Positions 26,444-42,874 of a stretch of 60,411 bases of DNA are shown piece by piece. The stretch is taken from the NCBI GenBank assembly GCA_016215155.1, contig JACRLQ010000023.1, forward strand, positions 1 through 60,411, given 5' to 3'. Under the pieces are notes generated by a model that saw nothing but the letters and a program-made list of their open reading frames with translations, ran no database searches and was not told where the DNA came from. A program made the position numbers and the translations under genes. The DNA is from Nitrospirota bacterium (GTDB taxonomy: Bacteria > Nitrospirota > Thermodesulfovibrionia > Thermodesulfovibrionales > UBA6898). Position 1 is the first letter of the stretch. Each line of letters begins with the position of its first letter.

Positions 26444-29404
26444 ATGAAAAAGGAAATAATACATGCGACAAAATCAATAAACGGTTTTAACGCGACGCGT
26501 AAGATTCTCCTGACATCGAGGGCGGGTCTGCTGCTGTTGTTGCCCCTGATAATTAGTTTGTTTGTGTTTCAGGGATGGTTCGTCGCGTCGGATGCCGAGG
26601 GGGCGGTAACGAACCTTCAGCAGTTTCCGTCAACCCCCCAGATGACGGCCACTACCGGAAACCTCTCAGGCACGTTCACGATTTCAAGCGGACCAAATCG
26701 TCTTTTTGTCGTCGTGGTATCAGCCGCCAACAACAACGGCTCTACCATGACATTCGCTGCGACATACGGCGGGGTCGCCCTGACTCAGGCCGCCACGAGT
26801 ACCTCTGGCTCCCAAAAATCATCAACATGGATCGGCTACCTTGATGAGACCGGCATAAGTTCGAAGACCTCGGATGACGTAGCCGTCACGATTACCGGCT
26901 CTCATACGGGCGCGATAGGATACATGGCAAGTTACCAGAATGTAAGCCAGTCAGCGCCTATAACCGCCAACGGCGGTTATTATTTTGATAACACATCCAC
27001 TACAGCAATCGGTCCTCTGGCTGCCAATACCGGGGGATACGGAATATACATCTGGGGCGGGCAAAACACCGTCACGAGAACGTCCGATACCGAGGCTTAC
27101 ACTGAACACTCGGACCTGCAAACGACTTACGGCAATCTCAAGGATTTCGGGGTATGCTCCAAAGCCATCTCGGCATCGACTAATCCGACGATTACATGGA
27201 GCGGCAATGTTAACCTTGCATCACTTTCGCTTGTTACGCTGAACTGGGCAGTCCCCGCAGTCACTGCCACTTCACCGAATATAAAGGCACGTGGCAGTTC
27301 CCAGGCAACCGTTACTATCACGGGCGCCAACTTTGGCGCGGGTGCAGCGGTCTCCTTTAATGATTCGCAAATCACGGTCGGCACGGTGACCGTAGTGAGT
27401 CCGACAGCAATAACTGTGCCTGTTACAGTCGGCGCATCCGCAACACTTGGCGCGCATGATGTGACGGTAACCAATACAGATGGAGGAAGCGGAACCGGAA
27501 CGGGAGTGTTCGTTGTTTTTGGACCGCCGACGGTCTCATCCACAACTCCAAACATACGGGGCCAGGGGGCCGTCAGTCAGAACATAACGATTACCGGGAC
27601 CAATTTCTTAAGCAGTGCAACGGCAAGTTTCAGCGGCACGGGTATCACGGTCAATTCAACTACATACGTGAGTGCAACATCCCTGACCGCGAATATAACT
27701 ATTGCCTCAAATGCGACGACGGACGGCAGGAACGTCACGGTTAATAACAACGATGGCGCCGGTACAGGAACAGGGACTAATGTGTTTACTGTCAGCGCAT
27801 CACCGACGGTCACATCGACAAGTCCAAACAGCCGGGGGCAGGGGGCAACCAATAAGAACATAACTATATATGGGACGAATTTCGCGAGCGGCGCAACGGC
27901 AAGCTTCAGCGGCACGGGTATTACGGTAAACTCAACAACATTCACCAATTCAACAATAGTGACCGCGAACGTAACGATCGCGGCAGGTGCAGCGACAGGC
28001 AGCCGGAACGTAACGGTAACGAACCTTGATGCGGGAGTTGGGACAGGGACTAATGTGTTCACTGTTAATGCGGCCCCCGCGGTCACGTCTGTAACCCCAA
28101 ACAGCAAACCGCAGGGGGTCAGCAATCAGAATATAACGATAACGGGGACCGGGTTTGTCAGCGGCGCCGGTCTTGCGGCGAGCTTCAGCGGCACCGGTAT
28201 CACGGTCAACTCCACGACATATGTGAGTGCCACGTCCCTGACCGCGAACATAACGATCGCTGAAAGTGCGACCGCGGGCAGCAGGGACGTAACCGTGACG
28301 AACCCTGACGGAGGCGCCGGTACAGGCACCGGAGCATTTACCGTCAATGCAGGACCCAAGGTTACATCGACAACTCCAAACAGCCGGCTTCAGGGTTCCA
28401 GCAATCAGAATATAACGATAACGGGGACCGGGTTTGTGAGCGGCGCCGGTCTTGCGGCAAGCTTCAGCGGCACGGGTATCACGGTAAACTCCACGACATA
28501 TGTGAGTGCCACATCCCTGACGGCAAATATAACGATCGCCGGAAATGCGACGACAGGCAGCCGGAACGTCACCGTAACGAACCCTGATGGAGGTGCCGGC
28601 ACGGGGACGGGAGTATTCACGGTCACTTCTCCCCCAACGGTAATATCGGCTTCACCTAATCAAAGGGCCCAGAACACCGCCCTGACGACGGTGACCATCA
28701 CAGGCGCCGGTTTTCAGGCGGGTGCGACGGTGTCGTTTAACGATGCAAACATAACCCTGGGGGCGGTGACTGTTGTAAACGCAACGACGATAACTCTGCC
28801 GGTGACGGTTACAGCTTCAGCAGCGTTGGGCGCGCATAACGTAACGGTAACAAACCTTGATGGAGGTGTCGGCACGGGGACGGGAGTATTCACGGTCAAC
28901 GTAAATACGACACCTACTGTCTCATCCGCAACTCCAAACAGCCGGGGCCAGGGGACCAGCAATCAGAACATAACGATTACCGGTACTAATTTCAGGAGCA
29001 ATGCAACGGCAAGTTTCAGCGGCACGGGTATTACGGTAAACTCAACGACGTATGTGAGTGCAACATCCCTGACCGCGAACATAACTGTTGCCGCGGGTGC
29101 TGCGACGGGGTTACGGAGCGTAACGGTAAATAACAACGATGGCAGCACCGCGGGAACAGGGACTAACGTGTTCACGGTTAATGCGTCACCTACGGTTACA
29201 TCGACAACTCCTAACAGCCGGCTTCAGGGTTCCAGTAATCAGAATATAACGATAACGGGGACCGGTTTTGTGAGCGGTTCCGGTCTTGCGGCAAGTTTCA
29301 GCGGCACGGGTATCACGGTAAACTCAACGACGTATGTGAGTGCAACATCCCTGACGAGGCACCGGCACGGGCACAGGGGTGTTCACTGTCAATGCCGGAC
29401 CTAA
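26444..29404 (+). CDS. Giant surface protein, N-terminal part (IPT/TIG repeats), ends at a frameshift
   Basis: 986 codons from ATG 26444 (aaggggg upstream). Signal/TM segment ~28-48; a ~220-residue N-terminal domain rich in Ser/Thr/Gly; then eight IPT/TIG Ig-like repeats of ~80-90 residues opening (V/K)(T/S)STTPN and containing SFSGTGITVNSTTYVSATSLT. In repeat eight, just after SATSLT, the frame is lost and 17 unrelated residues lead to a stop at 29402-29404. The same repeat pattern resumes in the +1 frame, so this and the next entry are one gene. The break is a real deletion, an assembly collapse, or a base error. Confidence 0.8.
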   Translation: MKKEIIHATKSINGFNATRKILLTSRAGLLLLLPLIISLFVFQGWFVASDAEGAVTNLQQFPSTPQMTATTGNLSGTFTISSGPNRLFVVVVSAANNNGSTMTFAATYGGVALTQAATSTSGSQKSSTWIGYLDETGISSKTSDDVAVTITGSHTGAIGYMASYQNVSQSAPITANGGYYFDNTSTTAIGPLAANTGGYGIYIWGGQNTVTRTSDTEAYTEHSDLQTTYGNLKDFGVCSKAISASTNPTITWSGNVNLASLSLVTLNWAVPAVTATSPNIKARGSSQATVTITGANFGAGAAVSFNDSQITVGTVTVVSPTAITVPVTVGASATLGAHDVTVTNTDGGSGTGTGVFVVFGPPTVSSTTPNIRGQGAVSQNITITGTNFLSSATASFSGTGITVNSTTYVSATSLTANITIASNATTDGRNVTVNNNDGAGTGTGTNVFTVSASPTVTSTSPNSRGQGATNKNITIYGTNFASGATASFSGTGITVNSTTFTNSTIVTANVTIAAGAATGSRNVTVTNLDAGVGTGTNVFTVNAAPAVTSVTPNSKPQGVSNQNITITGTGFVSGAGLAASFSGTGITVNSTTYVSATSLTANITIAESATAGSRDVTVTNPDGGAGTGTGAFTVNAGPKVTSTTPNSRLQGSSNQNITITGTGFVSGAGLAASFSGTGITVNSTTYVSATSLTANITIAGNATTGSRNVTVTNPDGGAGTGTGVFTVTSPPTVISASPNQRAQNTALTTVTITGAGFQAGATVSFNDANITLGAVTVVNATTITLPVTVTASAALGAHNVTVTNLDGGVGTGTGVFTVNVNTTPTVSSATPNSRGQGTSNQNITITGTNFRSNATASFSGTGITVNSTTYVSATSLTANITVAAGAATGLRSVTVNNNDGSTAGTGTNVFTVNASPTVTSTTPNSRLQGSSNQNITITGTGFVSGSGLAASFSGTGITVNSTTYVSATSLTRHRHGHRGVHCQCRT

Positions 29405-30210
29405 AGTCACATCGACATCACCCAATACCAGGGGCCGCAACAGCGCCCAGACCACTGTCACCATCACAGGGACCGGTTTTGCGGGCGGGGCAACGGTGAA
29501 TTTCAACGATGCAGGCATAACCCAGGGCGCCGTAACTGTAGTAAACGCAACAACGATAACACTGCCTGTTACCGTGACCGTGACTGCAACACCGGGCGCG
29601 CATAACGTAAGCGTTACGAATACTGATGGCGGGGCAGGGACAGGAAGTCAGGTTTTCACCGTGACCGCAGCCCCTTCGGTTGCCTCTGCGTCACCCAATC
29701 AAAGGCCCCGTGGCAGCGCCCAGACCACTGTCACCATCACAGGGACCGGGTTTGCGAGCGGCGCTGCAGTCTCATTCAATGATGCGAACATAACCCTGGG
29801 TGCGGTGACTGTTGTCAATTCGTCTACAATAACACTGCCTGTCACCGTGACAGGGACGGCAACCGTCGGCAGCCATAATGTTACGGTTACAAACGCTGAC
29901 GGCGGAACCGCAACCGGCACAGGCGTATTCACCGTTACGAATGCGCCGACAGTCACATATACATCGCCTAATGCGTTGGCGCAGGGCAGCGCGCCCACGA
30001 CGGTGACGATAACCGGGACTGGTTTTGCCGCCGGGTCCACGGTTTCTTTCAATGATGCGGGCATAACCCTCGGGGCGGTGACCGTTGTAAATGCCACAAC
30101 GATAACCCTGCCTGTTACCGTGACTGCCACGGCGGCCGCAGGTTCACATAACGTGACGGTGACAAACGCAGACGGCGGCTCCGGGACCGGCACAGCTGTT
30201 TTTACGGTCG
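27270..30210 (+). repeat. Array of about eleven IPT/TIG-coding repeats
   Basis: Units of ~240-280 bp share long identical stretches such as agcttcagcggcac, acatccctgac and aacataacgat. One unit (29,195-29,400) is truncated and carries the frameshift. Such near-identical repeats favour unequal recombination and also short-read assembly collapse. Confidence 0.85.
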
Positions 30211-33200
30211 GGACCTCTACTTATGGCTCGGTCCCTTACTGGGACAACGGCGCAGGAGCAGTATTCGCCCCTCAGCAATGGCCGACCGAAGCTCAGTGGG
30301 TCCCCTATACCTGGGGAAGTGCGTTCATTAAAGACCCGCGTGTCCTTGACCCGTCAAACGGAGGCACGAGGCCCCAGAATTACGTCAATGTAAGCTCAGG
30401 ATGTCCTGATCAGTCGCTTCCCAGCATGTATGTTTATTATGCAAACAATACCCTTTATTTCAGATGGAGGGTTGAGCAGATACCAAACACCTATGCGACA
30501 GGACCCGGGCCGGGCGCCTTCAGCGATGTCGATCCATGGAAGGCCGCCCAGTGGACTGTGTTCCTGGATACGGACGGCGACGGGTTCAGGGAATTCGGCA
30601 TGCAGCTTGACGGTTCCACGGGCATGCCGGCCTGGCCTGTGGATATCCTCCGCACGGTATACAGCAACACTCTCGATCATAATATGTCCCCCCACGACAG
30701 GGACATCTTCGAACTCTGGCACAACCCGACGGCCTTTGTGGACGGGACCTCAGGCAGCACCACCGACACCATTCTTAATTTTCATGGCACGAACGCGCCT
30801 GATACAAGTTGGCCTAATGGTCCTGCTGAGGTGGTCTGGGACTATGGGACCACCAGAGCTATCAATATAACGGATTACGACCCGCGCCTGTCTATTGATA
30901 AGGGCATCTCAGGGGCGCAACAGTGCGGCCTGACACAGGAAAACGAGTACTTTGTCGACTACCAGATCCCCGTGGGCATGTTAAGCAACGGCTCTTATAA
31001 CTTCGACTGCCAGAACCCGACGGGGCTTTTCTTTGCGACGGCAAACAGTCTTACAAATCCTTTCCAGAAGGACGTCGTCGCAAATACCGGTTATACCGGA
31101 GCATCAGAGAACTGCGCGCCTTATGGCGATCAGGTTGTCCTTTGCGGGCCGACCGGACCCACGATGGTCCCTCAGCCTGTAGTTGACTGGGTCACTACAT
31201 CAACATCGGGGTGCAACCAGACACTCACCGCAAAGGTGCGCGGCTCGGTTGTCCAGTCTTCCTGCAGCCCGGATATCACCGGCGCTGATTTCTATTATTA
31301 TTACGACGCAAACGCAAACGGTCTGGCGGATGACGGAGGGGCATGGCATCTGCTGGGCGCCGGCTCCAAGTCCTCAACGGACCAGACTAACTGGACCTAT
31401 CTGTGGAACACGACAGGAAGCGGCCTGCCGGCAGGAAACTATCTTGTCGGTGTTGATACGGTAAACAGCATCGGCTATCACACGTGGAGTTACAGCAGCA
31501 CGCCGATAGGCGTATCTCCGCCAAATTTTGCGAACCCTTCGCCCAAGCCAGGCCTGGTTTATGGATCGACCCTTTTAACCGGCGCATGCGGAGAGACGGC
31601 CATCGTCGATAAAACCGTGACTCCGGGCAAGACGATTATTAACTCGACCGTGCAATTTACAATTACAGTGCATAATAACACCTCCGGCGATATGCAGGTA
31701 AACAGTGTGACGGATTACCTGCCGCAGGGTGTGGACGGATATTCATTTGCCTACATAAGCTCTCCGGCGCCGACAGGGACGGGCGCCCTCTCAGCCCCGG
31801 GGGCGCCGACGGTGTCCGGGACTACCGTCACCTGGAACTTTTCTCCCGCCCGTACGATTTCCGCCGGGCAGAATGCGACGATCACGTTCACTTCACAGGC
31901 GCCTTCTGTTGAAGGCACCTATCAGAACACCTGCGGGGCGAACGCCTATGTCACGTCCTGGGGAATGACAAAGAACATAAACTGCAATTATGTGACGATC
32001 GAGGTCGGCGCGCCGAGGCTTACGATCGCAAAGACCGCGGATGTGACTTCAAGAGCGGTAGGTGAGACGATAAATTATACGGTCACCTATTCAAACGATT
32101 CGCCCTTTACGGCAACCGGCGCCTATATCACTGACGTCCTGCCTGCCGGGCTTACGTTTGTATCAGCGGCGAACGACGGAACGTATAATTCGTCAAACAG
32201 GACGATAACCTGGTACATCGGCACAATTTATGGAGGCACGGGACCTTTTACCGTCTCCTTTGTGGCGACGGTCACGAACCCGTATCCGGCGACTGAGCCA
32301 ATCAAGCTGAAAAATGTCGCGACGATCTATTCAAACGAGACGACGCCGAAACAGGCGGACGTTACGGTCATCATAACCGGTCTTTCGCGTCCAATCCTGA
32401 CGATCCAGAAGATCGGAAACAAGGTTTTCGTCGACCCAACCCAAGCCTCCCCTGCCGACAGGGTCACCTACACAATTTCCTATTCGAATGTCGGCAATGC
32501 AACCGCAACCAATTCGATAATATCGGATACAGTGCCCCCCGGCTGGACCTATGTCTCTTCTGCGGCCGGGACAAATTGCCCGGCCGGCACAACCACCGGC
32601 AACCCCGTCACCCTGATAAACTGGAATCTGGGGAGCGTGGCAGTTGGCGTGACAGGTACCTGCAACCTGATATTAAGGGCCGCTGACTCTCAGTCCAGCC
32701 CTTATACCGGAGACAACCCCTCCACCAATACAGCCAGCATCCGGGCGGATGGCTTCCCTCCGGTGAGCAGCAGCTTTACCGTGGCCCTAACCGGTGCAAT
32801 GCAATGTACCGGCACGAAATACTTTTTCCATGAGGAAACGACAAACGTCGGGTATGACGGGGTAAAAGAGATAGCAACTGTTTCTTATCCCAGTTCGGGT
32901 GCCGCGGCATACAAGCACGTCAACTGGATGTCACAGGGATGCGATATAGGTTCCTATTCCCCCATAGTAGATTTTTATATGGACCCGGTTCTGGTCAACA
33001 CCGGGACTGCGTCCAGCGTCACCTCCTCATGGTATCTGACCAAGACAAACGGGAACCCCTCAAACGTAAAAGTTTCCGTATATGACTATAACCCGACAGA
33101 CGGGAACAAGACCCTTCTGGCATCAGTAGTTCATTCCATAAAGGGGGCGAGCCAGACACCGTCTCTAGATTCCGACACCTTTATTTTAAATCAAGCGCCC

Positions 33201-36200
33201 TTGGCCGGGCATCGTCTGTACTGGCTATATGAAGGATGCACCACTGCGCAAAATCAGATCCTCGACGTTTACTATTACTATGACGGCATATATACGGATA
33301 GTAACAGCACGGTCCCGACCCCAAGCCATTTCTGCTATCAGGGGACCTCGGCGCTCATGAACAAAACCGTTGACAAGATGACTGCAATCCCAGGGGACAC
33401 CCTGACATACACGATGACCTTCGGCAATAACGGCGCCACCAACTTAACCGGAGCGCAGATCACGGATACACTGCCGACCGGAACGACGTATGTGAGTGCG
33501 ACGCTCAACGGAGCTGCGACTACCTGTTCGCAGGCCGGTCAGATTATCACCTGTGGGGTGAGGTCGAACGAGACGCCTGCCCCCGCGGTGGGAACGATAA
33601 CCGTCGGGCAGCAGGGAACGCTTGTCATTATCGCCACGGTGAACAATCCCTTCCCCGCAGGCCAGTATGAACTTATAAACAGTGCGACCCTGACGACCAG
33701 TCAGGCCGCGCCGATCACTGCCACGGCAAGGACGGTTGTGACGACGGACATCTCTATTTCGAAGTCTGTCGACAAAACACTGCTGTATCCCGGCGATATG
33801 GCCACGTTTACATTGAGTGTCAAAAACAGCAGCGGCGCAAACATAACGGTGAACATAGGCGATGTGTTGCCTACGGACACATACTTTTATTATGTAGGCT
33901 GCTCGGATGCATGCGGCTGGGATTCAGTGTCTCACACCGTTACGTGGACAAATATAACCGTGAATGCCAACTCTTCACGAAGCGTTACGTTCCAGATGAG
34001 GGTTGACACTGTAGGTGTGCCCATCGGGACTACGTATAAAGACAATACCGGAGTAGTAACCTACGGTTCACAACAATACAGCAACACCGTGACAGTGGCG
34101 ATACTGAACAACCCAAACATCAATATCACAAAGAGTGTTTCGCCCGCGGGTCCTGTAAAGGCCGGTGATACGATTACCTGGAACATGACAGTGACTAACA
34201 ACGGTCCTCAGAGCGCGTTTGGGGTGCTTGTGACGGATCCGATTATCCCCTATACGACATATAAGACCGGGAGCCTGACGTATGAGTTAACGGCCCAGAC
34301 GGATGCAAACGATTCACCAACCGACACCTCCTATTACGATGCAGTCAATGACCGTGTTGTTTATGAAGTGGGCACTCTGGCCGGCGGTGCGTCTAGGACG
34401 ATGAGCTTCAGCGCTATTGTTGACAGGCCGATGCCCAGTGGTACTACGGTCCTTACGAATACAGCAACGGTTTCGTCGAGCAATACGGGTACGAAGCAGG
34501 CGACGGCGACCATAAATGTAACTGATGCCCCGTCATTTGTGCTCAATAAGTATGCTGCATCCCTTGTTGCCTCGGGTCAAAATGTTACCTTTACCGTCTA
34601 CTACAAGAACACCGGCGGCGCAACCGCTACCTCGGCTGTAGTGACTGATACGCTTGCCGCAAACCTTACCTTTGTCTCCGCCGACGAAGGCGGGACTTAC
34701 GATTCCGGCACCAGAACGGTAACCTGGAACCTCGGGACACTCCCTCCGGATGCCGAGGGTTCGTTGCATCTTACAGTAACCCCCGCGGTCTGCGGGACAT
34801 ATTCAAATACAGCTACGATCTCCTCGGCGCAGACAGCCCCGTTGAACTCGAATATTACATCGACGGACGTATGCTGGTTGGAGCCGACCAAAAAGACCAC
34901 TACGGATCCGACTCTTATGACGGTAACGAATACTTCCACAGGCACACTGGCGACATATATCCTGACTGTCAGCAACCCGACCGGCACCACAGCAACAGGC
35001 GTTCAGGTCACGGACAATTTTCCTTCGGGCTTCAGCTATGACAGCAGTGTAACCCCTGTGTTTGGCGGAACAGGAACTAACAGGACTGCCCTGGTTAACC
35101 CGTCAAACGGGGCGACTCATCCGACCTGGGGGACCTGGGACATAAACGCCGGAGGCTCTCTTACTATCGCGTTTACGGCCAAGGTTGCATCGACAGTCCC
35201 TGAAGGCATATACGATAATGGGGTAGCGGCAACAAGCACAAACAATAGTGTGATGCTCTTCGATGAACTCGCCACGGCGGCTGACGACGTTAAGGTCGTT
35301 GTTCCGGTTGATCTGTCTGTAACCAAGACAGTCAATATTGCCGAGCCTCAGGGGACCGGGCCGGGGGCCGAGTTTGTATATACAATTACTTTGACGAATG
35401 TGGGAGTCAACCATGCCTTCAAGGTAAATCTTTCCGACCTCTTGCCGTCAGACATTACATATGTTTCAAATACCGCCAGCCAGGGGTCTTACAGCAACGC
35501 GACCGGTATCTGGGACGTCGGCAGGGTCGACAGATATGCCGGCGCAACTCTCACAATAACCGCATTCCCAAATGACGGCACCGCGGGAATGACGATCGAC
35601 AACTGTGCTTATCTGACTTCATCCGTGCCCCGCGAACCCAGTTATAGTGATCCCGATGACTGGAGTTGCGCAAGCATTAAGCCGACCCATGTCACGCTCT
35701 CGGGCTTCAGGGCTTTTGTCGAGGGGGGCAGCGTCGTTGTCGAATGGGAGACGGCTGCCGAGCGTAATACGGTGGGCTTTTATGTAGAACGTTATCACGA
35801 AAAGACCGGAGAGTATGTCCGTGTCAACAAGAAACTTCTGCCGGGTCTTATTACCTCCCGCGCGGGAGGCACATACCGCTTGATAGATGAAGCTGCCCCT
35901 GCCTCGGGAAGGCTTCTATATAGGCTTCTGGAGGTTGAATCAAAGGGCAACAAGGTTACTTACGGGCCATTCCATGTTGATCTTGGAGGCTCGGCGCTTA
36001 AGATAGAGAAGAAATTCGTCTCAGACGGCGCCATCGAGGTCACTATCCGCAGAAAGGTCGTGTCTTCCACCCGTCCGGCTGATCTGTCCAGACAGGGCTT
36101 TGAACAGGTCACCGGGGTTTACAGCAGGAAGGCTCACAGGCCTTCGCCACAAACCGCTGGCCGCTTTGCCGCGGCAAAGGCAGGGGCCTCAGCTGTTCAG

Positions 36201-38258
36201 CCGGCGGCTGTTCAGGCCGGAACCGCCATAAAGATGGCCGTCTCCGAAACAGGGCTTTATTATATCGATGCTTCGGATATCTCGGCCCTGCTGAATATAA
36301 CCCAGTCTTCGGTCCGCGCCCGGATAGGGGCAGGGGACTTTGCCCTGACGACCGGCGGGCGTCAGGTCGCCTATACCGGGGCGGAAGGCAACGCGGGCAT
36401 TTTCTTTTACGGGAAGGCCCTCGAAAGCGTGTATACCGGCGCCAATATATACTGGATCAAAGAGGGCAGGGGCCTCCTGATGCAGACCGTGGGCGGTGAC
36501 AAGGAGACGCTCGAAGGCGTTGCCGCCGATGCCTTCGCCGATACAATTCATGCCGAGCAGGATGTCTGGAGTGACACAAGCCTCGCCAAAGACCCAAATT
36601 CAGACTATTGGTATTGGGATTATGTCATGGCGGACTACCCCGGGTTTGACTATAAAGAGTTCAGTTTCAGGGCGGACTCTGTTTCCGCCGCGACCGGGAC
36701 CGCGACTATCGGGGCCAGGCTGCAATCGATCGTACCGTTCCGCAGCCGGGCTGTTATAACACTTAACGGGAGTACGACCATTTTCGACGGCATATGGGAT
36801 GGACTTGACCCAAAGACGGTCGTCGCGAACATCGACCAGGGCCTTCTCAGGGAAGGTGACAATATCATTGGAGTCAGAGCCATGCTTGAGTCCGGCGTTG
36901 ATTTCAGCGCATTTTACATAGACTCATTTGATGTTACCTATGCTCGGCGCTTTGAGGCTGTAAATGACTCGCTGAGTTTCAGATCGGAGGGCAGTCCCGT
37001 CATCACCGTCGATGGTTTTACTACGCCTGACATTTCAGTGTTCGAAATTACCAATTCTCAGAGGCCTCGGCTGGTCACGGCCGCGGAGGTACTTGACCAG
37101 GGCGGCGCCAGTTACAGCGTGAGGTTCTATCCGGTAAGGACAGCCGCCTCCTACATCGCGGTTACGACAGGTTCCATTAAGCGGGCCGACGCGGCGGCTG
37201 ACCGGCCTTCTGACCTCAGGAAAAATGATAACGCCGCGGAGTATGTCGTGATAGCCCCTGCTGAGTTGAAAGATGCAGTCGCGGGTCTTGCCGAATACAG
37301 AAGGGGCCAGGGCATGACCGTCAAGGTCGCGATGCTTGAGGACATAATGGACGAATTCAACTTTGGGGTGAGCGATCCCAATGCGATTAGAACTTTTCTC
37401 GAATATGCCTATAAGAACTGGAAGAAAAAGCCCCGATATGCGGCGCTGGCCGGCAGCGGGACTTTCGATTATAAAAATTATGGGGGGTATGGCGGTAATC
37501 TGATTCCCGCTCTTATGGTAGGATCACCGTGGGGACTTTCGCCCTCGGACAATGTGCTGGGTGATTTTAACAACGACGATGTCCCTGAGATCATCGTCGG
37601 CAGGCTGCCTGTGCTGAGTTCAGCGGAACTTCAGGTGCTTATAAACAAGATCATGACGTTTGAGGCCTCACACAGCGAAGGGACCATCCTTATTGCTGAC
37701 AAGGCCGACGGAGGCGGTGATTTTCCGAAAGACAGTAATGAAATCGCCGGACTTTTCACCGCCGGCTATCCCCTGCAGAGGATTTATCTGCAGGAAAATC
37801 AGCTTGCGCAGGCCCGGAAATCCCTGTTTGACGGCATGAAGGCAGGCACAAAATTTATCAACTATCTCGGTCACGGCACAGTCGAGCGCTTATCCGAAGG
37901 CGGTCTGCTCACAAAGGATGATGCGGCCGGACTTATTAATAGCGCCTATCCCGTGATGACCGCGCTGACATGCTCTTCCGGCCATTACGCGCTTCCGGGC
38001 TTCGATGCCCTGATGGAGGCGCTGATCATAAGAAACGGCGGAGGTATCGTATCTTCCTGGGCGCCGACGGACTGGTCATACAATGCTGATGCGAAGATCC
38101 TCGGAGAGGGTTTCTATAAGGCGGTCTTTCGTCCCGTCGTGACGACCATGGGTGATGCCGTCACAAGGGCCATGACTGCATATAAGGCGTCCGGCAGGGC
38201 CTCTTACGAGCTCAATATATTCAATATAATCGGAGATCCGGCCCTGAGGCTTAAATAG
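29379..38258 (+). CDS. Giant surface protein, C-terminal part: IPT, DUF11 repeats, gingipain-like C25 peptidase domain
   Basis: 2959 codons, resuming at VFTVNAG after the frame break; the GTG at 29379 is only the first available codon. Order: three IPT/TIG repeats to ~30,200; a ~300-residue domain with D.DGDG (30,230-31,550); about nine DUF11-type repeats with V.DTLP.G.TYVSA (31,600-35,640); a linker; a propeptide-like beta domain; and a C-terminal peptidase C25 domain (~37,200-38,258). The C25 dyad is visible: His in NYLGHGTVE (~37,870) and Cys in ALTCSSGHY (~37,970). Ends NIIGDPALRLK with no sorting tail recognised. The RiPP genes follow within 35 bp. Intact, the gene would encode about 3,940 residues. 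Confidence 0.85.
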   Translation: MFTVNAGPKVTSTSPNTRGRNSAQTTVTITGTGFAGGATVNFNDAGITQGAVTVVNATTITLPVTVTVTATPGAHNVSVTNTDGGAGTGSQVFTVTAAPSVASASPNQRPRGSAQTTVTITGTGFASGAAVSFNDANITLGAVTVVNSSTITLPVTVTGTATVGSHNVTVTNADGGTATGTGVFTVTNAPTVTYTSPNALAQGSAPTTVTITGTGFAAGSTVSFNDAGITLGAVTVVNATTITLPVTVTATAAAGSHNVTVTNADGGSGTGTAVFTVGTSTYGSVPYWDNGAGAVFAPQQWPTEAQWVPYTWGSAFIKDPRVLDPSNGGTRPQNYVNVSSGCPDQSLPSMYVYYANNTLYFRWRVEQIPNTYATGPGPGAFSDVDPWKAAQWTVFLDTDGDGFREFGMQLDGSTGMPAWPVDILRTVYSNTLDHNMSPHDRDIFELWHNPTAFVDGTSGSTTDTILNFHGTNAPDTSWPNGPAEVVWDYGTTRAINITDYDPRLSIDKGISGAQQCGLTQENEYFVDYQIPVGMLSNGSYNFDCQNPTGLFFATANSLTNPFQKDVVANTGYTGASENCAPYGDQVVLCGPTGPTMVPQPVVDWVTTSTSGCNQTLTAKVRGSVVQSSCSPDITGADFYYYYDANANGLADDGGAWHLLGAGSKSSTDQTNWTYLWNTTGSGLPAGNYLVGVDTVNSIGYHTWSYSSTPIGVSPPNFANPSPKPGLVYGSTLLTGACGETAIVDKTVTPGKTIINSTVQFTITVHNNTSGDMQVNSVTDYLPQGVDGYSFAYISSPAPTGTGALSAPGAPTVSGTTVTWNFSPARTISAGQNATITFTSQAPSVEGTYQNTCGANAYVTSWGMTKNINCNYVTIEVGAPRLTIAKTADVTSRAVGETINYTVTYSNDSPFTATGAYITDVLPAGLTFVSAANDGTYNSSNRTITWYIGTIYGGTGPFTVSFVATVTNPYPATEPIKLKNVATIYSNETTPKQADVTVIITGLSRPILTIQKIGNKVFVDPTQASPADRVTYTISYSNVGNATATNSIISDTVPPGWTYVSSAAGTNCPAGTTTGNPVTLINWNLGSVAVGVTGTCNLILRAADSQSSPYTGDNPSTNTASIRADGFPPVSSSFTVALTGAMQCTGTKYFFHEETTNVGYDGVKEIATVSYPSSGAAAYKHVNWMSQGCDIGSYSPIVDFYMDPVLVNTGTASSVTSSWYLTKTNGNPSNVKVSVYDYNPTDGNKTLLASVVHSIKGASQTPSLDSDTFILNQAPLAGHRLYWLYEGCTTAQNQILDVYYYYDGIYTDSNSTVPTPSHFCYQGTSALMNKTVDKMTAIPGDTLTYTMTFGNNGATNLTGAQITDTLPTGTTYVSATLNGAATTCSQAGQIITCGVRSNETPAPAVGTITVGQQGTLVIIATVNNPFPAGQYELINSATLTTSQAAPITATARTVVTTDISISKSVDKTLLYPGDMATFTLSVKNSSGANITVNIGDVLPTDTYFYYVGCSDACGWDSVSHTVTWTNITVNANSSRSVTFQMRVDTVGVPIGTTYKDNTGVVTYGSQQYSNTVTVAILNNPNINITKSVSPAGPVKAGDTITWNMTVTNNGPQSAFGVLVTDPIIPYTTYKTGSLTYELTAQTDANDSPTDTSYYDAVNDRVVYEVGTLAGGASRTMSFSAIVDRPMPSGTTVLTNTATVSSSNTGTKQATATINVTDAPSFVLNKYAASLVASGQNVTFTVYYKNTGGATATSAVVTDTLAANLTFVSADEGGTYDSGTRTVTWNLGTLPPDAEGSLHLTVTPAVCGTYSNTATISSAQTAPLNSNITSTDVCWLEPTKKTTTDPTLMTVTNTSTGTLATYILTVSNPTGTTATGVQVTDNFPSGFSYDSSVTPVFGGTGTNRTALVNPSNGATHPTWGTWDINAGGSLTIAFTAKVASTVPEGIYDNGVAATSTNNSVMLFDELATAADDVKVVVPVDLSVTKTVNIAEPQGTGPGAEFVYTITLTNVGVNHAFKVNLSDLLPSDITYVSNTASQGSYSNATGIWDVGRVDRYAGATLTITAFPNDGTAGMTIDNCAYLTSSVPREPSYSDPDDWSCASIKPTHVTLSGFRAFVEGGSVVVEWETAAERNTVGFYVERYHEKTGEYVRVNKKLLPGLITSRAGGTYRLIDEAAPASGRLLYRLLEVESKGNKVTYGPFHVDLGGSALKIEKKFVSDGAIEVTIRRKVVSSTRPADLSRQGFEQVTGVYSRKAHRPSPQTAGRFAAAKAGASAVQPAAVQAGTAIKMAVSETGLYYIDASDISALLNITQSSVRARIGAGDFALTTGGRQVAYTGAEGNAGIFFYGKALESVYTGANIYWIKEGRGLLMQTVGGDKETLEGVAADAFADTIHAEQDVWSDTSLAKDPNSDYWYWDYVMADYPGFDYKEFSFRADSVSAATGTATIGARLQSIVPFRSRAVITLNGSTTIFDGIWDGLDPKTVVANIDQGLLREGDNIIGVRAMLESGVDFSAFYIDSFDVTYARRFEAVNDSLSFRSEGSPVITVDGFTTPDISVFEITNSQRPRLVTAAEVLDQGGASYSVRFYPVRTAASYIAVTTGSIKRADAAADRPSDLRKNDNAAEYVVIAPAELKDAVAGLAEYRRGQGMTVKVAMLEDIMDEFNFGVSDPNAIRTFLEYAYKNWKKKPRYAALAGSGTFDYKNYGGYGGNLIPALMVGSPWGLSPSDNVLGDFNNDDVPEIIVGRLPVLSSAELQVLINKIMTFEASHSEGTILIADKADGGGDFPKDSNEIAGLFTAGYPLQRIYLQENQLAQARKSLFDGMKAGTKFINYLGHGTVERLSEGGLLTKDDAAGLINSAYPVMTALTCSSGHYALPGFDALMEALIIRNGGGIVSSWAPTDWSYNADAKILGEGFYKAVFRPVVTTMGDAVTRAMTAYKASGRASYELNIFNIIGDPALRLK

Positions 38259-38291: not shown

Positions 38292-38585
38292 ATGGGGAGT
38301 CTGAGGGGAATATACAGGAAGCGCGGGGACATCATCTCCAGGGAGATAGCCGGCGAGACGGTCCTTGTGCCTGTGAGGGGCAAGCTTGCGGACATGCAGA
38401 GGATCTTTTCTCTTAATCCGATGGCTGCCTTTCTCTGGGGCCAGATCGACGGGACACAGGACCTTCAGGCGATACTCTCGAATGTCGTCAGCGACTTCGA
38501 GGTCACCGCGCAGTGCGCGGAGTCGGATATCAGGGAGTTAATCATGGAACTCCTTGAAGCCGGCCTTATTGAGTTTGTTCAGTGA
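38292..38585 (+). CDS. PqqD-like peptide-binding protein (RRE)
   Basis: 97 residues from ATG 38292, which has CGGAGACGGG upstream; earlier in-frame GTG/ATG codons (38262, 38265) lack one. It matches the PqqD fold: YRKRGDIISREIAGETVLVPV, then NPMAAFLWGQIDG and a C-terminal helix ending ELLEAGLIEF. PqqD proteins bind the leader of RiPP precursors and present it to a radical SAM enzyme. It overlaps the radical SAM gene (TGATG) and begins 33 bp after the giant gene, so cotranscription with it is possible. Confidence 0.88.
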   Translation: MGSLRGIYRKRGDIISREIAGETVLVPVRGKLADMQRIFSLNPMAAFLWGQIDGTQDLQAILSNVVSDFEVTAQCAESDIRELIMELLEAGLIEFVQ

Positions 38586-39676
38586 TGGAATGCACTTCTT
38601 CATATAGCGCTTCAGAGTATATGAAGTATTTCAACAGCAGGCTTGAATTGCACAGGGTCCCGGTGTCGGGCGGGCTCGAGATAACAAAACATTGCAACCT
38701 GAAATGCGCCCATTGCTATATCGGGTCCGCGAGAACTCCCTCCGCGGGCGACCGGCCTGAAATGAAAACTGACAAGATACTGGGACTGCTGGATGAAATC
38801 CGTGATGCGGGGTGCCTGAGTCTGCTTATAACGGGGGGTGAGCCCCTGCTTAGGCCCGACTTCGGGAAGGTTTATGAGCGGGCCAAGAATAATGGTATGC
38901 TGGTGACGGTTTTTACAAACGGGACACTGATACACGAAGAGATCCTTGAGCTTTTTTCTGGCCTGCCTCCGAGGTCCGTAGAAATCAGCCTGTACGGCGC
39001 GACGGCCCGAACATACGAGGCCGTAACCGGGGTGCCCGGATCCTATGCCAAATGTATAAGAGGCCTTGAGGGGCTTCTTGCCGGAGGCATTGAGGTCGGC
39101 CTGAAGACTGTCCTCATGTCCGTCAACCGGCACGAGTTTTTCGATATAAAGAATATGGCGAAGCAATATGGGGTTGCTTTCCGGTTTGATTCTGACATCT
39201 TTCCGCGTTTTGACGGCGACCGCATGCCGCTTGACCTGAGGGTCCCGATCGAGGATTCCGTGGCTTTGGAAATGTCTGATCCCAAGAGACTCGAAGGATG
39301 GAGGAAATTCCTGCGGACCAATGGCAGTTTCAGGTTGGGCGAAAGGCTCTATAACTGCGGGGCCGGCGTCACTAACTTTCATATCGACGCCTCCGGATAT
39401 CTTATGCCGTGCCTGATGATCAGGGAGGGACGCTTTGACCTTTTGTCAGGGGACTTTGTCGCGGGATGGAAAAAGATGGCGTTTCTCCATGAGAAAAAGA
39501 CCGATCCCGCGAACCCTTGCATTGGCTGTGATAAAATATCGTTATGCAGCTATTGTCCCGCTTTTTTTCGGCTCGAAAACGGAGATGAAAACAGCGCCCC
39601 GGAATATCTCTGCAGTTCTGGAGAGGCCCGGTATAATGTTATAATGAAGCAAGAACCGATATCCAGGGAGGCATAG
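38585..39676 (+). CDS. Radical SAM/SPASM peptide maturase
   Basis: 363 residues. The radical SAM cluster motif CNLKCAHC lies near residue 35, followed by the SAM-binding LLITGGEPLLR. The C-terminal SPASM domain has CGAGVTNFHID.SGYLMPC, then PCIGCDKISLCSYC and a final YLC, the Cys set that binds two auxiliary Fe-S clusters. Enzymes of this type crosslink Cys or other side chains of ribosomal peptides, or make other radical modifications. Coupled to pqqD by a TGATG overlap; the precursor gene starts at the next base after its stop. Which bond it makes is not predictable. Confidence 0.92.
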   Translation: MECTSSYSASEYMKYFNSRLELHRVPVSGGLEITKHCNLKCAHCYIGSARTPSAGDRPEMKTDKILGLLDEIRDAGCLSLLITGGEPLLRPDFGKVYERAKNNGMLVTVFTNGTLIHEEILELFSGLPPRSVEISLYGATARTYEAVTGVPGSYAKCIRGLEGLLAGGIEVGLKTVLMSVNRHEFFDIKNMAKQYGVAFRFDSDIFPRFDGDRMPLDLRVPIEDSVALEMSDPKRLEGWRKFLRTNGSFRLGERLYNCGAGVTNFHIDASGYLMPCLMIREGRFDLLSGDFVAGWKKMAFLHEKKTDPANPCIGCDKISLCSYCPAFFRLENGDENSAPEYLCSSGEARYNVIMKQEPISREA

Positions 39677-39832
39677 ATGAAGATAAAAAAGAAAATATAC
39701 ATTAAACCTCAGCTGAGGATCATAGAGCTTAAGGCCGAAGAGGTAATGGTTGCCGGCTGCAAGATGCTAGGCCGGACCGCTCCTGGCGGGGTGACCTGCT
39801 TTTCCAACAGATGCGCCGGGACAGGCTCATAA
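39677..39832 (+). CDS. RiPP precursor peptide (51 residues)
   Basis: ATG 39677 follows the radical SAM stop directly, with AGGGAGG seven bases upstream. The leader (~1-27) is Lys-rich then amphipathic: IYIKPQLRIIELKAEEVMVA, the style of leaders bound by PqqD domains. The core (~27-51) starts at Gly27-Cys28, has Cys at 28, 41 and 46, many Gly/Thr/Ser residues, and ends ...CAGTGS with Ser51 at the C-terminus. Too short for most gene callers. Position between maturase and kinase, strong ribosome site and leader/core contrast make the assignment good; the modification and cleavage site (probably near VAG/C) are inference. Confidence 0.85.
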   Translation: MKIKKKIYIKPQLRIIELKAEEVMVAGCKMLGRTAPGGVTCFSNRCAGTGS

Positions 39833-39847
39833 AAGTTTCTTTTCCCC

Positions 39848-40735
39848 GTGGGGCAGGTATTGAATATAGGCGGGGTGCGGCTGGCATTGTCTTGCCGGCA
39901 GGGCATTGACGTCTCTTCACATTATGAAGCCTATGATGAGTTTTATGTCGGACAAACGAGTGGCGCTTTAGAAACCCCGGACATTTCCGTGGATATCTCC
40001 TTCGGCCGGGTCCATGATATCACGGAGTTACGGGACTGTTTTGAGACCGGCCAGTCATGGTCTTTATTCAGAGATGGGGATAATTATCTCGTTAAGTTTA
40101 AGCGGGTGGGATCAACGGACTGTTATATGACCGCCCTCATAAGCCGGGACATAAGCGCGGTGGACCTGAGATGCGGTAATGAGCTTATAGGCAGCGGGGG
40201 GAGGGTGGATAGTCCTGTCTGTTACCCTCTCGACCAGATTCTTCTCATGCAATATCTTGTCAGACACGAAGGGATTATAGCCCATTCAGCCGGGGCGTCA
40301 TTCAACGGCAAAGGATATCTCTTTCCGGGATGCTCCGGGGCGGGGAAGTCCACTATTTCACGGAGTATGTACGGATCGGACAAGATGCTGCTTCTAAGCG
40401 ACGACAGGATAATTATAAGGAAGGGACCAGATACCTTCTCAATATTCGGTACGCCGTGGCCGGGCGATGCCTCAATAGCGGTGAACCGGTCTGCTCCTCT
40501 TAAAGGGGTCTTCTTCCTCGTAAAAGGCGGTGAAAACAGGATTGAACCCATCGATGAATCAGAGGCATTCAGGAGGTTCATGCCGGTGCTCTCGGTCCCG
40601 TGGTATGACAGGGACTCCGTTTCGGCGGCGCTTTCGCTTGTGAATGGACTCATCTCAGCAGTTCCATCGTATCTGATAAGTTTTAAACCGGGGAAAGAGG
40701 TGTCAGATTACCTTGAAGAATTTATCTCCGGATAA
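39848..40735 (+). CDS. HPr-kinase-like ATP-dependent kinase of the RiPP locus
   Basis: 295 residues from GTG 39848, 15 bp after the precursor stop; no clear ribosome site, so the start is uncertain. C-terminal half: AHSAGA (~145-150), P-loop GCSGAGKST (161-169), Asp pair LLSDDR (183-187), and FGTPWPGD (~200-207), the order seen in HprK/P catalytic domains. The N-terminal ~130 residues replace the HprK regulatory domain. Related enzymes in some lasso-peptide clusters phosphorylate the precursor's C-terminal Ser; the precursor here also ends in Ser. Substrate assignment is inference. Confidence 0.8.
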   Translation: MGQVLNIGGVRLALSCRQGIDVSSHYEAYDEFYVGQTSGALETPDISVDISFGRVHDITELRDCFETGQSWSLFRDGDNYLVKFKRVGSTDCYMTALISRDISAVDLRCGNELIGSGGRVDSPVCYPLDQILLMQYLVRHEGIIAHSAGASFNGKGYLFPGCSGAGKSTISRSMYGSDKMLLLSDDRIIIRKGPDTFSIFGTPWPGDASIAVNRSAPLKGVFFLVKGGENRIEPIDESEAFRRFMPVLSVPWYDRDSVSAALSLVNGLISAVPSYLISFKPGKEVSDYLEEFISG

Positions 40736-40742
40736 CACATCC

Positions 40743-41237
40743 ATGGGCCTGCCCGCCCTGGCCTCTTTCGAAAATACCGAGGTGACCGCCTTTTTCGGGG
40801 AGATATTAAAAAGCGGCCTCAGTCTCCGTGTCAGGGTGACCGGGCGAAGCATGGCCCCTTTTTTGAAGGGAGGTGAAGTCGTTACGATTAAACAGGCGGC
40901 TGCGTCTGACCTCCGGAGGGGAGACCTTATTTTGTTCGACAGCCCCCATGGGGTTCAGGTGCTTCACAGGCTCGTAAGGAAAAAGCGCGGCGCGGGCGGC
41001 TCCCATATTTATCAAACCAGGGGAGATGCGCTTAGGACGCTCGACGGCCCGATAACTTCAAATGAGATTTTGGGCAGGGTCTGTTCGATAGAGCACAACC
41101 ATCCAACATCCGGCGGACGCCGGACAGAGATGGGGTCAGCCCTCCAGAGGACCATTAATTACTTGCTCGCGGTGATTAACCTTGCTGAATCTTTTATATA
41201 TTGTTCAGTCGCCGGACGGTCAACAAAGGGGTGTTGA
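40743..41237 (+). CDS. S24/S26-family (SipW-like) peptidase of the RiPP locus
   Basis: 164 residues from ATG 40743; an in-frame TTG at 40713 overlapping the kinase gene is possible. Motifs of the Ser/His branch of signal peptidases: VTGRSMAPFLKGG (Ser36), GDLILF, VLHRLVR (His75 in place of the Lys of LepB) and TRGDALRTLDGPI. A hydrophobic segment near the C-terminus (~138-155) may anchor it. As the last enzyme of the locus it may remove the leader from the modified peptide. The usual N-terminal TM of signal peptidase I is absent. Confidence 0.8.
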   Translation: MGLPALASFENTEVTAFFGEILKSGLSLRVRVTGRSMAPFLKGGEVVTIKQAAASDLRRGDLILFDSPHGVQVLHRLVRKKRGAGGSHIYQTRGDALRTLDGPITSNEILGRVCSIEHNHPTSGGRRTEMGSALQRTINYLLAVINLAESFIYCSVAGRSTKGC

Positions 41238-41338: not shown

Positions 41339-42874
41339 ATGAATAAATGGATAGTGGCGCTGACCGTCATGCTCCCTACACTTATCGAGATAGTGGACAC
41401 GTCCGTCGTGAACGTGTCACTCGACAGCATCCGGGGGAGCCTTTCCGCGGGTATCGACGAATCTACATGGACGATAACCTCGTACCTTGTGTCCAACGCG
41501 ATAATAATCCCGATGACGGGCTGGCTGAGCAGGATCATCGGCAGGAAGAAGTATCTGATCCTTTCGATCATGCTCTTTACGCTCAGTTCTTTTTTATGCG
41601 GCATCTCGTGGGACCTCCAGAGCCTGGTATTTTTCAGGGTCCTGCAGGGCATAGGTGGGGGCGCGCTCCAGCCGATATCGCAGTCGATACTGCTTGAGAC
41701 CTTCCCGAGGAAGCAGCATGGCATGGCCATGGCCATATTTGGGGTGGGGATCATGTTCGGACCGATCATCGGCCCTCTGCTTGGCGGCTGGATAACCGAC
41801 AACTGGTCATGGCACTGGATATTCTTTATCAATATTCCCATCGGGGTGGTCTCCGTTTTCATGGCCCTGTTTTTTATATCCGACCCGCCTTACATGAAAC
41901 GGATGAGCATGAAGATAGACTATTGGGGACTTGCCCTCCTTGCCATCGGTCTGGGGTGCCTGCAGATTGTGCTGGACAAGGGGCAGATGGAGGACTGGTT
42001 CTCTTCGGGTTTCATAACCGGACTGACCCTCGTCTCCGTTACGTGTCTGGTTTTGTTCCTTTATGTCGAGTCTGTTGTTGACCACCCCATAATGAGCCTG
42101 AAGACCTTCAGAAATATCTCCTTCAGCACGGGTAATATCGTCATGTTCTTTGCCTTCTTTAATCTTTTCGGGAGCATCGTGCTGCTTCCGGTATATCTTC
42201 AGACGTTGATGGGGTATACCTCGACGCTCTCGGGCATGGTGCTCGGCCCAGGGGGCATCGCGACGCTGGTTGCGATGCCGGTTGCCGGACGGCTGGTTAC
42301 TAAAATGAGCCCTAAGGCCCTGCTCGCGTTTGGGATCGTAATGTCGTCATATTCGACCTGGCTCATGTCGAATTTCAGTCTGGCGGCCGACTTCGACGCG
42401 GTCATATGGCCCCGTATCGTCCTTGGCGTGGGCATGGGTTTTTTGTTCATCCCTCTTACCACACTGACCATGTCCACCATAAAAAAAGAGGACATGGCAA
42501 ACGCCTCGGCGATATATAATCTTTTGAGGAACCTCGGCGGCAGCTTCGGTGTCGCGTTCGTGACAACCATGCTTGCCCGGCGCGCGCAGTTCCATCAGGT
42601 CAGACTCAGCGACCACTTCACCCCATTTGACGCGAATTATCAGATTGCCGCGCAGACGGCGTCACGCATGCTTGAGGTCAAAGGCATGGACCACACTACC
42701 GCGTTACAGGGGGGGCCGGGCCTGCTCTACGGGCAGATGGTCAGGCAGGCGTCGATGTTGTCGTTTAACGACGTCTTTCATCTTCTGAGCCTCTGCATGA
42801 TATTTATTCTCCCGCTCGTGCTGCTTATGAGGAGGGGCAGAGGTGAAGACTCCCCGTCGGCGGGAATGCATTAA
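41339..42874 (+). CDS. DHA2-family MFS exporter (EmrB/QacA-like)
   Basis: 511 residues, about 14 hydrophobic segments. Marks: LIEIVDTSVVNVSL in TM1, GWLSRIIGRKK after TM2, FFRVLQGIGGGALQP in TM4 and GIMFGPIIGPLLGGW in TM5 (antiporter motif). Proton-driven export of drugs or peptides. It lies 101 bp after the peptidase gene on the same strand, so it may belong to the RiPP locus as exporter or be an ordinary drug pump; no EmrA partner is present. Confidence 0.9.
   Translation: MNKWIVALTVMLPTLIEIVDTSVVNVSLDSIRGSLSAGIDESTWTITSYLVSNAIIIPMTGWLSRIIGRKKYLILSIMLFTLSSFLCGISWDLQSLVFFRVLQGIGGGALQPISQSILLETFPRKQHGMAMAIFGVGIMFGPIIGPLLGGWITDNWSWHWIFFINIPIGVVSVFMALFFISDPPYMKRMSMKIDYWGLALLAIGLGCLQIVLDKGQMEDWFSSGFITGLTLVSVTCLVLFLYVESVVDHPIMSLKTFRNISFSTGNIVMFFAFFNLFGSIVLLPVYLQTLMGYTSTLSGMVLGPGGIATLVAMPVAGRLVTKMSPKALLAFGIVMSSYSTWLMSNFSLAADFDAVIWPRIVLGVGMGFLFIPLTTLTMSTIKKEDMANASAIYNLLRNLGGSFGVAFVTTMLARRAQFHQVRLSDHFTPFDANYQIAAQTASRMLEVKGMDHTTALQGGPGLLYGQMVRQASMLSFNDVFHLLSLCMIFILPLVLLMRRGRGEDSPSAGMH

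Follow-up and report, generated by a model that had tools for sequence, protein, structure and literature searches.

Phosphorylated lasso peptides, SynChlorMet cassettes, the sactipeptides and ranthipeptides, and phosphorylated lantibiotics each share features with the gene cassette analysed here, which encodes a PqqD-like protein, a radical S-adenosylmethionine (SAM)/SPASM enzyme, a 51-amino acid (aa) precursor peptide, an HprK-like kinase and an S26-type peptidase, next to a giant protein with a Peptidase_C25 domain. The cassette lies in a stretch of 60,411 nucleotides from a Nitrospirota bacterium (order Thermodesulfovibrionales; contig JACRLQ010000023.1 of assembly GCA_016215155.1), hereafter the window. 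Phosphorylated lasso peptides (paeninodin, PadeK/ThcoK; BsfA/BsfK), a class of ribosomally synthesised and post-translationally modified peptides (RiPPs), have in common with it a YxxPxL leader, a stand-alone PqqD-like RiPP recognition element (RRE) and a C-terminal Ser, and their HprK-like kinases carry the same catalytic residues as the cassette kinase. Lasso clusters, however, contain a B2 transglutaminase-type peptidase and an asparagine-synthetase-type cyclase, whereas the cassette has the radical SAM/SPASM enzyme and the S26 peptidase instead, together with a Cys-rich core. A lasso peptide was rejected as the product, with neither B2 peptidase nor cyclase detected among the six gene products scanned or among those recurring neighbours that are annotated, which is not all of them. 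The genome's only match to PF13471 lies on another contig, while the cyclase family was left out of the genome-wide search.

The SynChlorMet cassette (NCBIfam ScmA-ScmF) likewise combines a PqqD-like ScmD, an HprK-like ScmC and SPASM enzymes, but includes two radical SAM genes where the cassette of the window has one. Assignment to this system was rejected, as the bit scores fell far under the cut-offs (ScmF 86/400, ScmE 81/400, ScmD 31.5/100, ScmC 24/125). Sactipeptides and ranthipeptides (SkfB, AlbA, CteB, PapB) share the radical SAM enzyme with its complete set of SPASM Cys and the presence of Cys in the core; in contrast to them, the cassette has a separate PqqD protein, a YxxP leader, a kinase and a C25 protein, and its scores against these families are far below the cut-offs. 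Phosphorylated lantibiotics are described as phosphorylated RiPPs in PMC13219514; they are lantibiotics by class name, and the cassette differs by its radical SAM enzyme.

The individual parts are known from SPASM-dependent RiPPs, lasso peptide kinases and SynChlorMet cassettes with their PqqD and HprK-like proteins. No curated system matches the single-radical-SAM cassette with its conserved phospho-acceptor at the terminus and its C25 partner, and neither precursor nor kinase passes any cut-off. No paper on this gene combination was found in the open-licence literature of PubMed Central. We favour, with moderate confidence, the explanation that this operon serves to make a ribosomal peptide that is radical-modified and terminally phosphorylated, and that has a secreted C25 partner.

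Gene order and conservation of the precursor peptide

An earlier note on this DNA had described a RiPP locus of five genes at 38292-41237, in which crosslinking, phosphorylation and leader removal were combined. All five genes are present among the reading frames of the window exactly where it had placed them, and its RiPP reading stands. The range was too short, since the upstream gene reaching 38258 belongs to the operon: the note had missed a giant C25 protease gene, which is co-directional with the PqqD gene, only a few bases away from it and associated with the cassette in genomes across the order. The locus is a six-gene operon that includes the giant C25 gene and probably yields a radical-modified small peptide with a phosphate on its last amino acid. 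Its features are as follows.

26444-29404, plus strand: probable N-terminal part of the giant protein, in another frame, with a hydrophobic signal-like N-terminus and IPT/TIG-like repeats (from the translation)
29379-38258, plus strand: C-terminal 2959 codons of the giant secreted protein, with IPT/TIG and DUF11 repeats and a complete Peptidase_C25 domain at the C-terminus
38292-38585, plus strand: PqqD-like stand-alone leader-recognition protein (RRE), like lasso B1 (PF05402)
38585-39676, plus strand: radical SAM/SPASM maturase with CX3CX2C and seven SPASM Cys (PF04055)
39665-39671, plus strand: ribosome-binding site of the precursor, AGGGAGG (read from the sequence)
39677-39757, plus strand: precursor leader, residues 1-27, with Y8-I-K-P11-Q-L13 matching YxxPxL (boundary placed by conservation)
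39758-39829, plus strand: precursor core, residues 28-51, with Cys28-Lys29, Cys41, Cys46 and the C-terminal Gly-Ser51
39848-40735, plus strand: HprK-like peptide kinase of the PEPCK/HprK fold (AlphaFold2, Foldseek, invariant residues)
40713-41237, plus strand: S26/SipW-type peptidase with Ser46 and His85, the probable leader peptidase (TIGR02228, invariant S46/H85)

The PqqD gene, for which in-frame starts also occur earlier, from 38262, ends in a stop codon that overlaps the ATG opening the radical SAM/SPASM gene. The precursor gene (39677-39832) opens on the first base past the radical SAM/SPASM stop and is separated from the kinase gene by 15 bases, and the kinase and S26-type genes overlap by 23 bases. 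In the genome, which comprises 3.43 Mb in 101 contigs, the precursor was found once.

Relatives were collected by searching the radical SAM protein in 61 genomes, 30 of which gave a match at 1e-20 or better. Around the best matches 24 stretches were fetched, in which the precursor was sought by tblastn. Loci from named genomes were examined by an alignment-based scan, a single-sequence scan having given no match; the 80 named loci yielded 20 peptides by profile and 8 more by motif among 17 inspected. The main set comprises 44 distinct precursors from single-radical-SAM cassettes (fetched, named-genome and second-batch loci), and the full set of 64 peptides includes 13 further ones from multi-radical-SAM cassettes and 7 from a mixed distant group (Elusimicrobiota, Omnitrophota, Actinomycetota). 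Repeats of other loci (L054, L143 and the first peptide of L053) were left out, as were L057, which is cut inside the peptide, and L026, which meets a contig end; two spurious tblastn matches in L041 were removed, and a weak match in L137 (E 0.04, ending in Thr) was not counted. No peptide was recognised beside the radical SAM and kinase genes of L068, L070, L072, L073, L076, L078, L091, L139 and L145, among others, and neither kinase nor peptide was recognised in L062, L077 and L138.

The 51-aa precursor is real and conserved, as tblastn detected one in 23 of the 24 relative loci, the remaining locus being the truncated L026. Compared with its closest relative, L022, the peptide frame shows more synonymous than non-synonymous differences per site (pS 0.78, pN 0.27), as a coding peptide should. 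Its gene stands between those of the radical SAM enzyme and the kinase, and all three are conserved together across phyla. None of the 25 aligned precursors matches Pfam, and NCBIfam gave only three stray matches for them (E 0.05-0.07).

All 44 precursors of the main set carry a (Y/W)xxP leader motif, in the strict form YxxPxL in 20 of them; the window has YIKPQL. The first core Cys lies 20 residues past the Tyr/Trp in 41 and 19 residues past it in the other 3 precursors, is directly followed by Lys in 39/44 and is preceded by a residue that is small in most of them (Gly in 28/44, Ala in 6/44). Four residues had been singled out in the earlier note for an alignment of relatives. Cys28 corresponds to the first core Cys present in 44/44 precursors, Cys46 is kept in all 25 rows of the alignment, and Ser51 recurs as Ser in 40/44 and as Thr in 2; Cys41 is not universal, and 3/44 precursors have two Cys only. 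The 25-row alignment is conserved in the leader and at the first and final Cys, and variable between the first Cys and the terminal Ser.

Of the 44 precursors, 40 have Ser as their last residue, 2 have Thr, one has Gly and one Gln, and a Gly-Ser terminus is found in 27; Ser makes up 8.9% of the remaining core residues, although a binomial figure for the terminal Ser overstates the case because the sequences are mutually related. The 13 multi-radical-SAM peptides end in Ser (11), Cys (1) or Asp (1), and the 7 distant ones in Ser (5) or Arg (2), so that over all 64 peptides Ser occurs 56 times, Thr twice and another residue 6 times. Ten single-radical-SAM loci were fetched after the Ser rule had been noticed, and their peptides carry a terminal Ser in 8 cases and a terminal Thr in 2. 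Altogether, the conserved gene order, the leader motif, the fixed leader-to-Cys spacing and the terminal Ser/Thr strongly support the assignment of the locus to the RiPPs.

Some cassettes encode more than one peptide: a tandem pair of differing precursors was observed at each of L045:570-917 and L053:7013-7399. Elusimicrobiota cassettes (L069, L071, L080, L083) encode near-identical, Ser-ended peptides of the form LACGKCxxGPIxQLACKx.

Enzymes of the cassette and the terminal phospho-acceptor

From the observed conservation and gene linkage we infer the reactions, their order and the role of the C25 protein. The PqqD-like protein would hold the leader and present the core, and the fixed 20-residue spacing between leader motif and first Cys fits such a protein acting as a ruler. 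The SPASM enzyme is predicted to introduce a bond into the core, the most likely product being a thioether that involves Cys28 and its partners. The HprK-like kinase would place a phosphate on the C-terminal Ser side chain, in the manner of lasso peptide kinases, and the S26 Ser/His peptidase may remove the leader before Cys28, behind a small residue; the small residue preceding the first Cys would suit a signal-peptidase-like cut at this position. The peptide would then leave through an exporter and meet the C25 protein outside the cell. This giant protein, the presumed secreted partner from the same operon, would most likely be an extracellular protease finishing, or controlled by, the peptide.

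The PqqD protein matches PF05402 with 57.2 bits (cut-off 23.4) and scores below the cut-offs of the lasso and SynChlorMet PqqD models. Ten Cys are invariant in the 21 aligned radical SAM rows (C37, C41, C44, C258, C276, C312, C315, C321, C324 and C343), and comparison of the maturase profile with solved structures gave SkfB (6efn, 1.1e-29) as the nearest relative, followed by PqqE (2.5e-20). In the PQQ and mycofactocin pathways the residues concerned are a Tyr, or a Glu-Tyr or Val-Tyr pair. The joint presence of PqqD, SPASM enzyme and short peptide, the rank of PqqE as second nearest solved relative and a score of 101 bits against the mycofactocin maturase model (cut-off 265) would agree with a peptide that serves as scaffold for a small redox cofactor, as in PQQ or mycofactocin, with PqqD and SPASM enzyme acting as they do there. 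We regard this as very unlikely: the core is Cys-rich and variable and has no conserved Tyr, Glu-Tyr or Val-Tyr pair, single loci (L045, L053) encode tandem precursors that differ from each other, and a kinase and a secreted protease are ill-suited to a cofactor.

The S26-type peptidase scores 54.4 bits with the signal peptidase I model TIGR02228, just above its cut-off of 51.85, and falls just below the cut-offs for Pfam S26 and S24. Its Ser46 and His85 are invariant in 15 rows.

The AlphaFold2 model of the kinase has a mean predicted local distance difference test (pLDDT) score of 90.7. Foldseek placed it closest to PEPCK (4.8e-07) and next to HprK/P (1knx, 9.1e-05), and the VIA comparison with PEPCK 1xkv gave Z 13.9 and a root-mean-square deviation of 4.5 over 232 residues. 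The P-loop, the preceding His and the DD pair are present, the second D being E in some rows, and H146, G161, S163, G166, K167, D185 and R187 are invariant in the 18 rows aligned. His146, the P-loop and Asp185 correspond to the lasso kinase motif H-G-G-G-K-S-D-D as given in the accessible part of PMC10368454. According to the same part of that paper, every lasso phosphorylation described before had been on the C-terminal Ser, and the RRE protein accelerates phosphorylation; an excerpt of PMC8498205 likewise has paeninodin phosphorylated on its C-terminal Ser. For the phosphorylation step proposed in the earlier note, kinase fold, kinase motif and residue conservation give indirect support to a phosphate on the last residue. 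The crosslinking and S26-dependent leader removal of its proposal would be compatible with the genes present. In one kinase-less genome, the single such case found, the two peptides (L079) end in Ala and Gln.

Several observations weigh against an operon for a radical-modified, terminally phosphorylated peptide with a C25 partner. The kinase falls under every NCBIfam cut-off and under those of Pfam as well, its relation to HprK being sub-threshold only, and every enzymatic step is deduced from sequence. The peptidase is missing near the kinase in a number of loci, part of which are truncated by contig ends, and 17 of the 33 loci compared have no C25 gene of this cluster. Six of the 64 peptides lack a terminal Ser/Thr despite a kinase gene, namely those of L051 (G), L052 (Q), L058 and L075 (R), L063 (C) and the SynChlorMet-like L040 (D). 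Conversely, the peptides of L066 and L083 end in Ser with no kinase gene in the fetched stretch; elsewhere in their genomes there is a weak kinase match for L066 (G401, 1.9e-7) and a clear one for L083 (G402, 2e-27).

These mismatches in both directions would agree with a RiPP whose terminal Ser/Thr is kept for recognition by the S26 peptidase, the C25 protein or an exporter, while the kinase targets an inner residue or another partner. BsfK, which in the part of PMC10368454 available phosphorylates Ser3 of a lasso core ending in Asp, offers a precedent for an inner target, and for the same reason provides a ready account of the exceptions without terminal Ser/Thr. We consider this alternative unlikely, as 2 of the 10 later loci replace the last residue by Thr, which can likewise accept a phosphate, and the kinase-less locus L079 has no terminal Ser/Thr. 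Decay of the kinase does not account cleanly for the exceptions: GEDQ replaces SDDR in L051 and L052, but L059 has EDR together with a Ser-ended peptide.

The giant C25 protein

The Peptidase_C25 domain matches the gingipain-type family PF01364 over profile positions 1-374 (E 3.5e-67), and DUF11 repeats occur in nine stretches of the protein. The columns of the His/Cys dyad are kept in 24/24 relatives, with NYLGHG and LTC in the window, and complete relatives start with a hydrophobic signal-like stretch. In the window the junction of the two frames, which were read separately and not joined, falls at about 29350-29390, inside the repeats; a repeat-related deletion or an assembly fault is the likely cause of the split.

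Clustering of the neighbouring genes revealed the C25 gene as one further recurring gene, adjacent to the cassette in 16 of the 33 loci compared. It is missing from about half of the cassettes and is therefore not needed for the core chemistry. The domain was found at 15 places in 14 of the 61 genomes and at 37 places in 32 of 395 genomes of the phylum. With both searches joined, 18 of the 21 places within the order of the window lie on the same contig beside the cassette radical SAM gene. Of the others, G001:C110 runs into an S26 gene, as if continuing the cut cassette L042, and linkage to a cassette was not shown for G399:C207 and G032:C5. All 14 C25-bearing genomes fall within the 23 of 61 with a radical SAM match of 1e-60 or better, against none of the 38 others (Fisher 3.6e-08, uncorrected for relatedness).

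A gene carried along by descent, with no working link to the peptide, would explain why 17/33 loci lack it and why, outside the order, C25 occurs at 17 places in 13 genomes of the phylum with no cassette radical SAM match. In a radical SAM tree of 62 rows, however, C25-linked cassettes occupy three separate places, namely a 19-row main clade including the window (support 97/95), L042/L043 and the Chloroflexota L051/L052, with the C25 label of L042 and L135 assigned indirectly, as their contigs do not show the gene. Every one of the 19 main-clade rows bears the C25 label, that of L135 by inference only. Two different positions of the gene occur, before PqqD and, in L052, between the kinase and S26 genes; in L043 it follows the kinase gene. 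The link is common to two Chloroflexota and a worm-associated proteobacterium. In L126, L127 and L143 the C25 gene runs in the same direction as PqqD and stops some 10 bases or less from it; opposite-strand genes flank the six genes on either side in L126 and L127. Common descent and working linkage are separable only as far as this tree and position argument goes, on which we judge mere descent to be improbable.

Within the favoured explanation of a phosphorylated peptide with a secreted partner, the cassette and the giant protein may tentatively be viewed as a two-part secreted system, in which the radical-modified peptide with its C-terminal phosphoserine would be the dedicated activator, inhibitor or covalent partner of a surface protease. 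The phosphorylated RiPPs named here for comparison are lasso peptides and lantibiotics; if true, no earlier RiPP would have combined radical modification with phosphorylation, and none would have been tied to a C25 protease before. The lasso-type pair of RRE and kinase would also prove to be a portable module if a conserved C-terminal phospho-acceptor belonged to a radical-modified peptide. The added mass of 80 Da and the single residue carrying it would provide a simple handle for finding products in mostly uncultured phyla, and the C25 link would allow a natural product and the giant surface protease tied to it to be tested together.

C25 genes without a cassette were observed in family f28 (G067, G075, G084, G092, G098, G104, G108, G112, G116 and G120), in frames of about 460-1100 aa.

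Neighbouring genes and variant cassettes

An EmrB-type MFS exporter gene downstream of the cassette (41339-42874) was rejected as an operon member, since it recurs in none of the other loci compared. No ABC exporter was found beside the cassette of the window in the neighbour comparison of loci, whereas one adjoins the cassettes of L044, L048 and L049 and the SynChlorMet-like cassette of L040. Promoter and terminator scans of the locus gave signals no higher than shuffled sequence.

Next to a cassette of the single type, L040:556-4834 holds a SynChlorMet-like one that comprises two radical SAM genes together with PqqD, kinase and S26 genes; the candidate peptide of the latter contains several Cys and ends in Asp. 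In L141 (G154:C1:427000-438000), PqqD, kinase and a Ser-ended peptide are encoded together with three radical SAM enzymes. Such a triplet of radical SAM matches recurs in one family of the phylum, f29, in which 30 genomes have matches and 28 of them have three. At L079:6927-7227, from Oscillospiraceae, the PqqD and radical SAM genes are accompanied by two very short peptides (RGCKQGTC).

At L049:1594-3153, the gene between those for S26 and PqqD encodes a B12-binding radical SAM protein, which may be an additional tailoring enzyme. The S26 peptidase is fused to an uncharacterised PF14907 nucleotidyltransferase in L048:3892-5970 and L050:8147-9754, in L048 also with a GNAT acetyltransferase, an arrangement that recalls the pair of kinase and nucleotidyltransferase reported for the lasso peptide pseudomycoidin in the accessible portion of PMC8498205.

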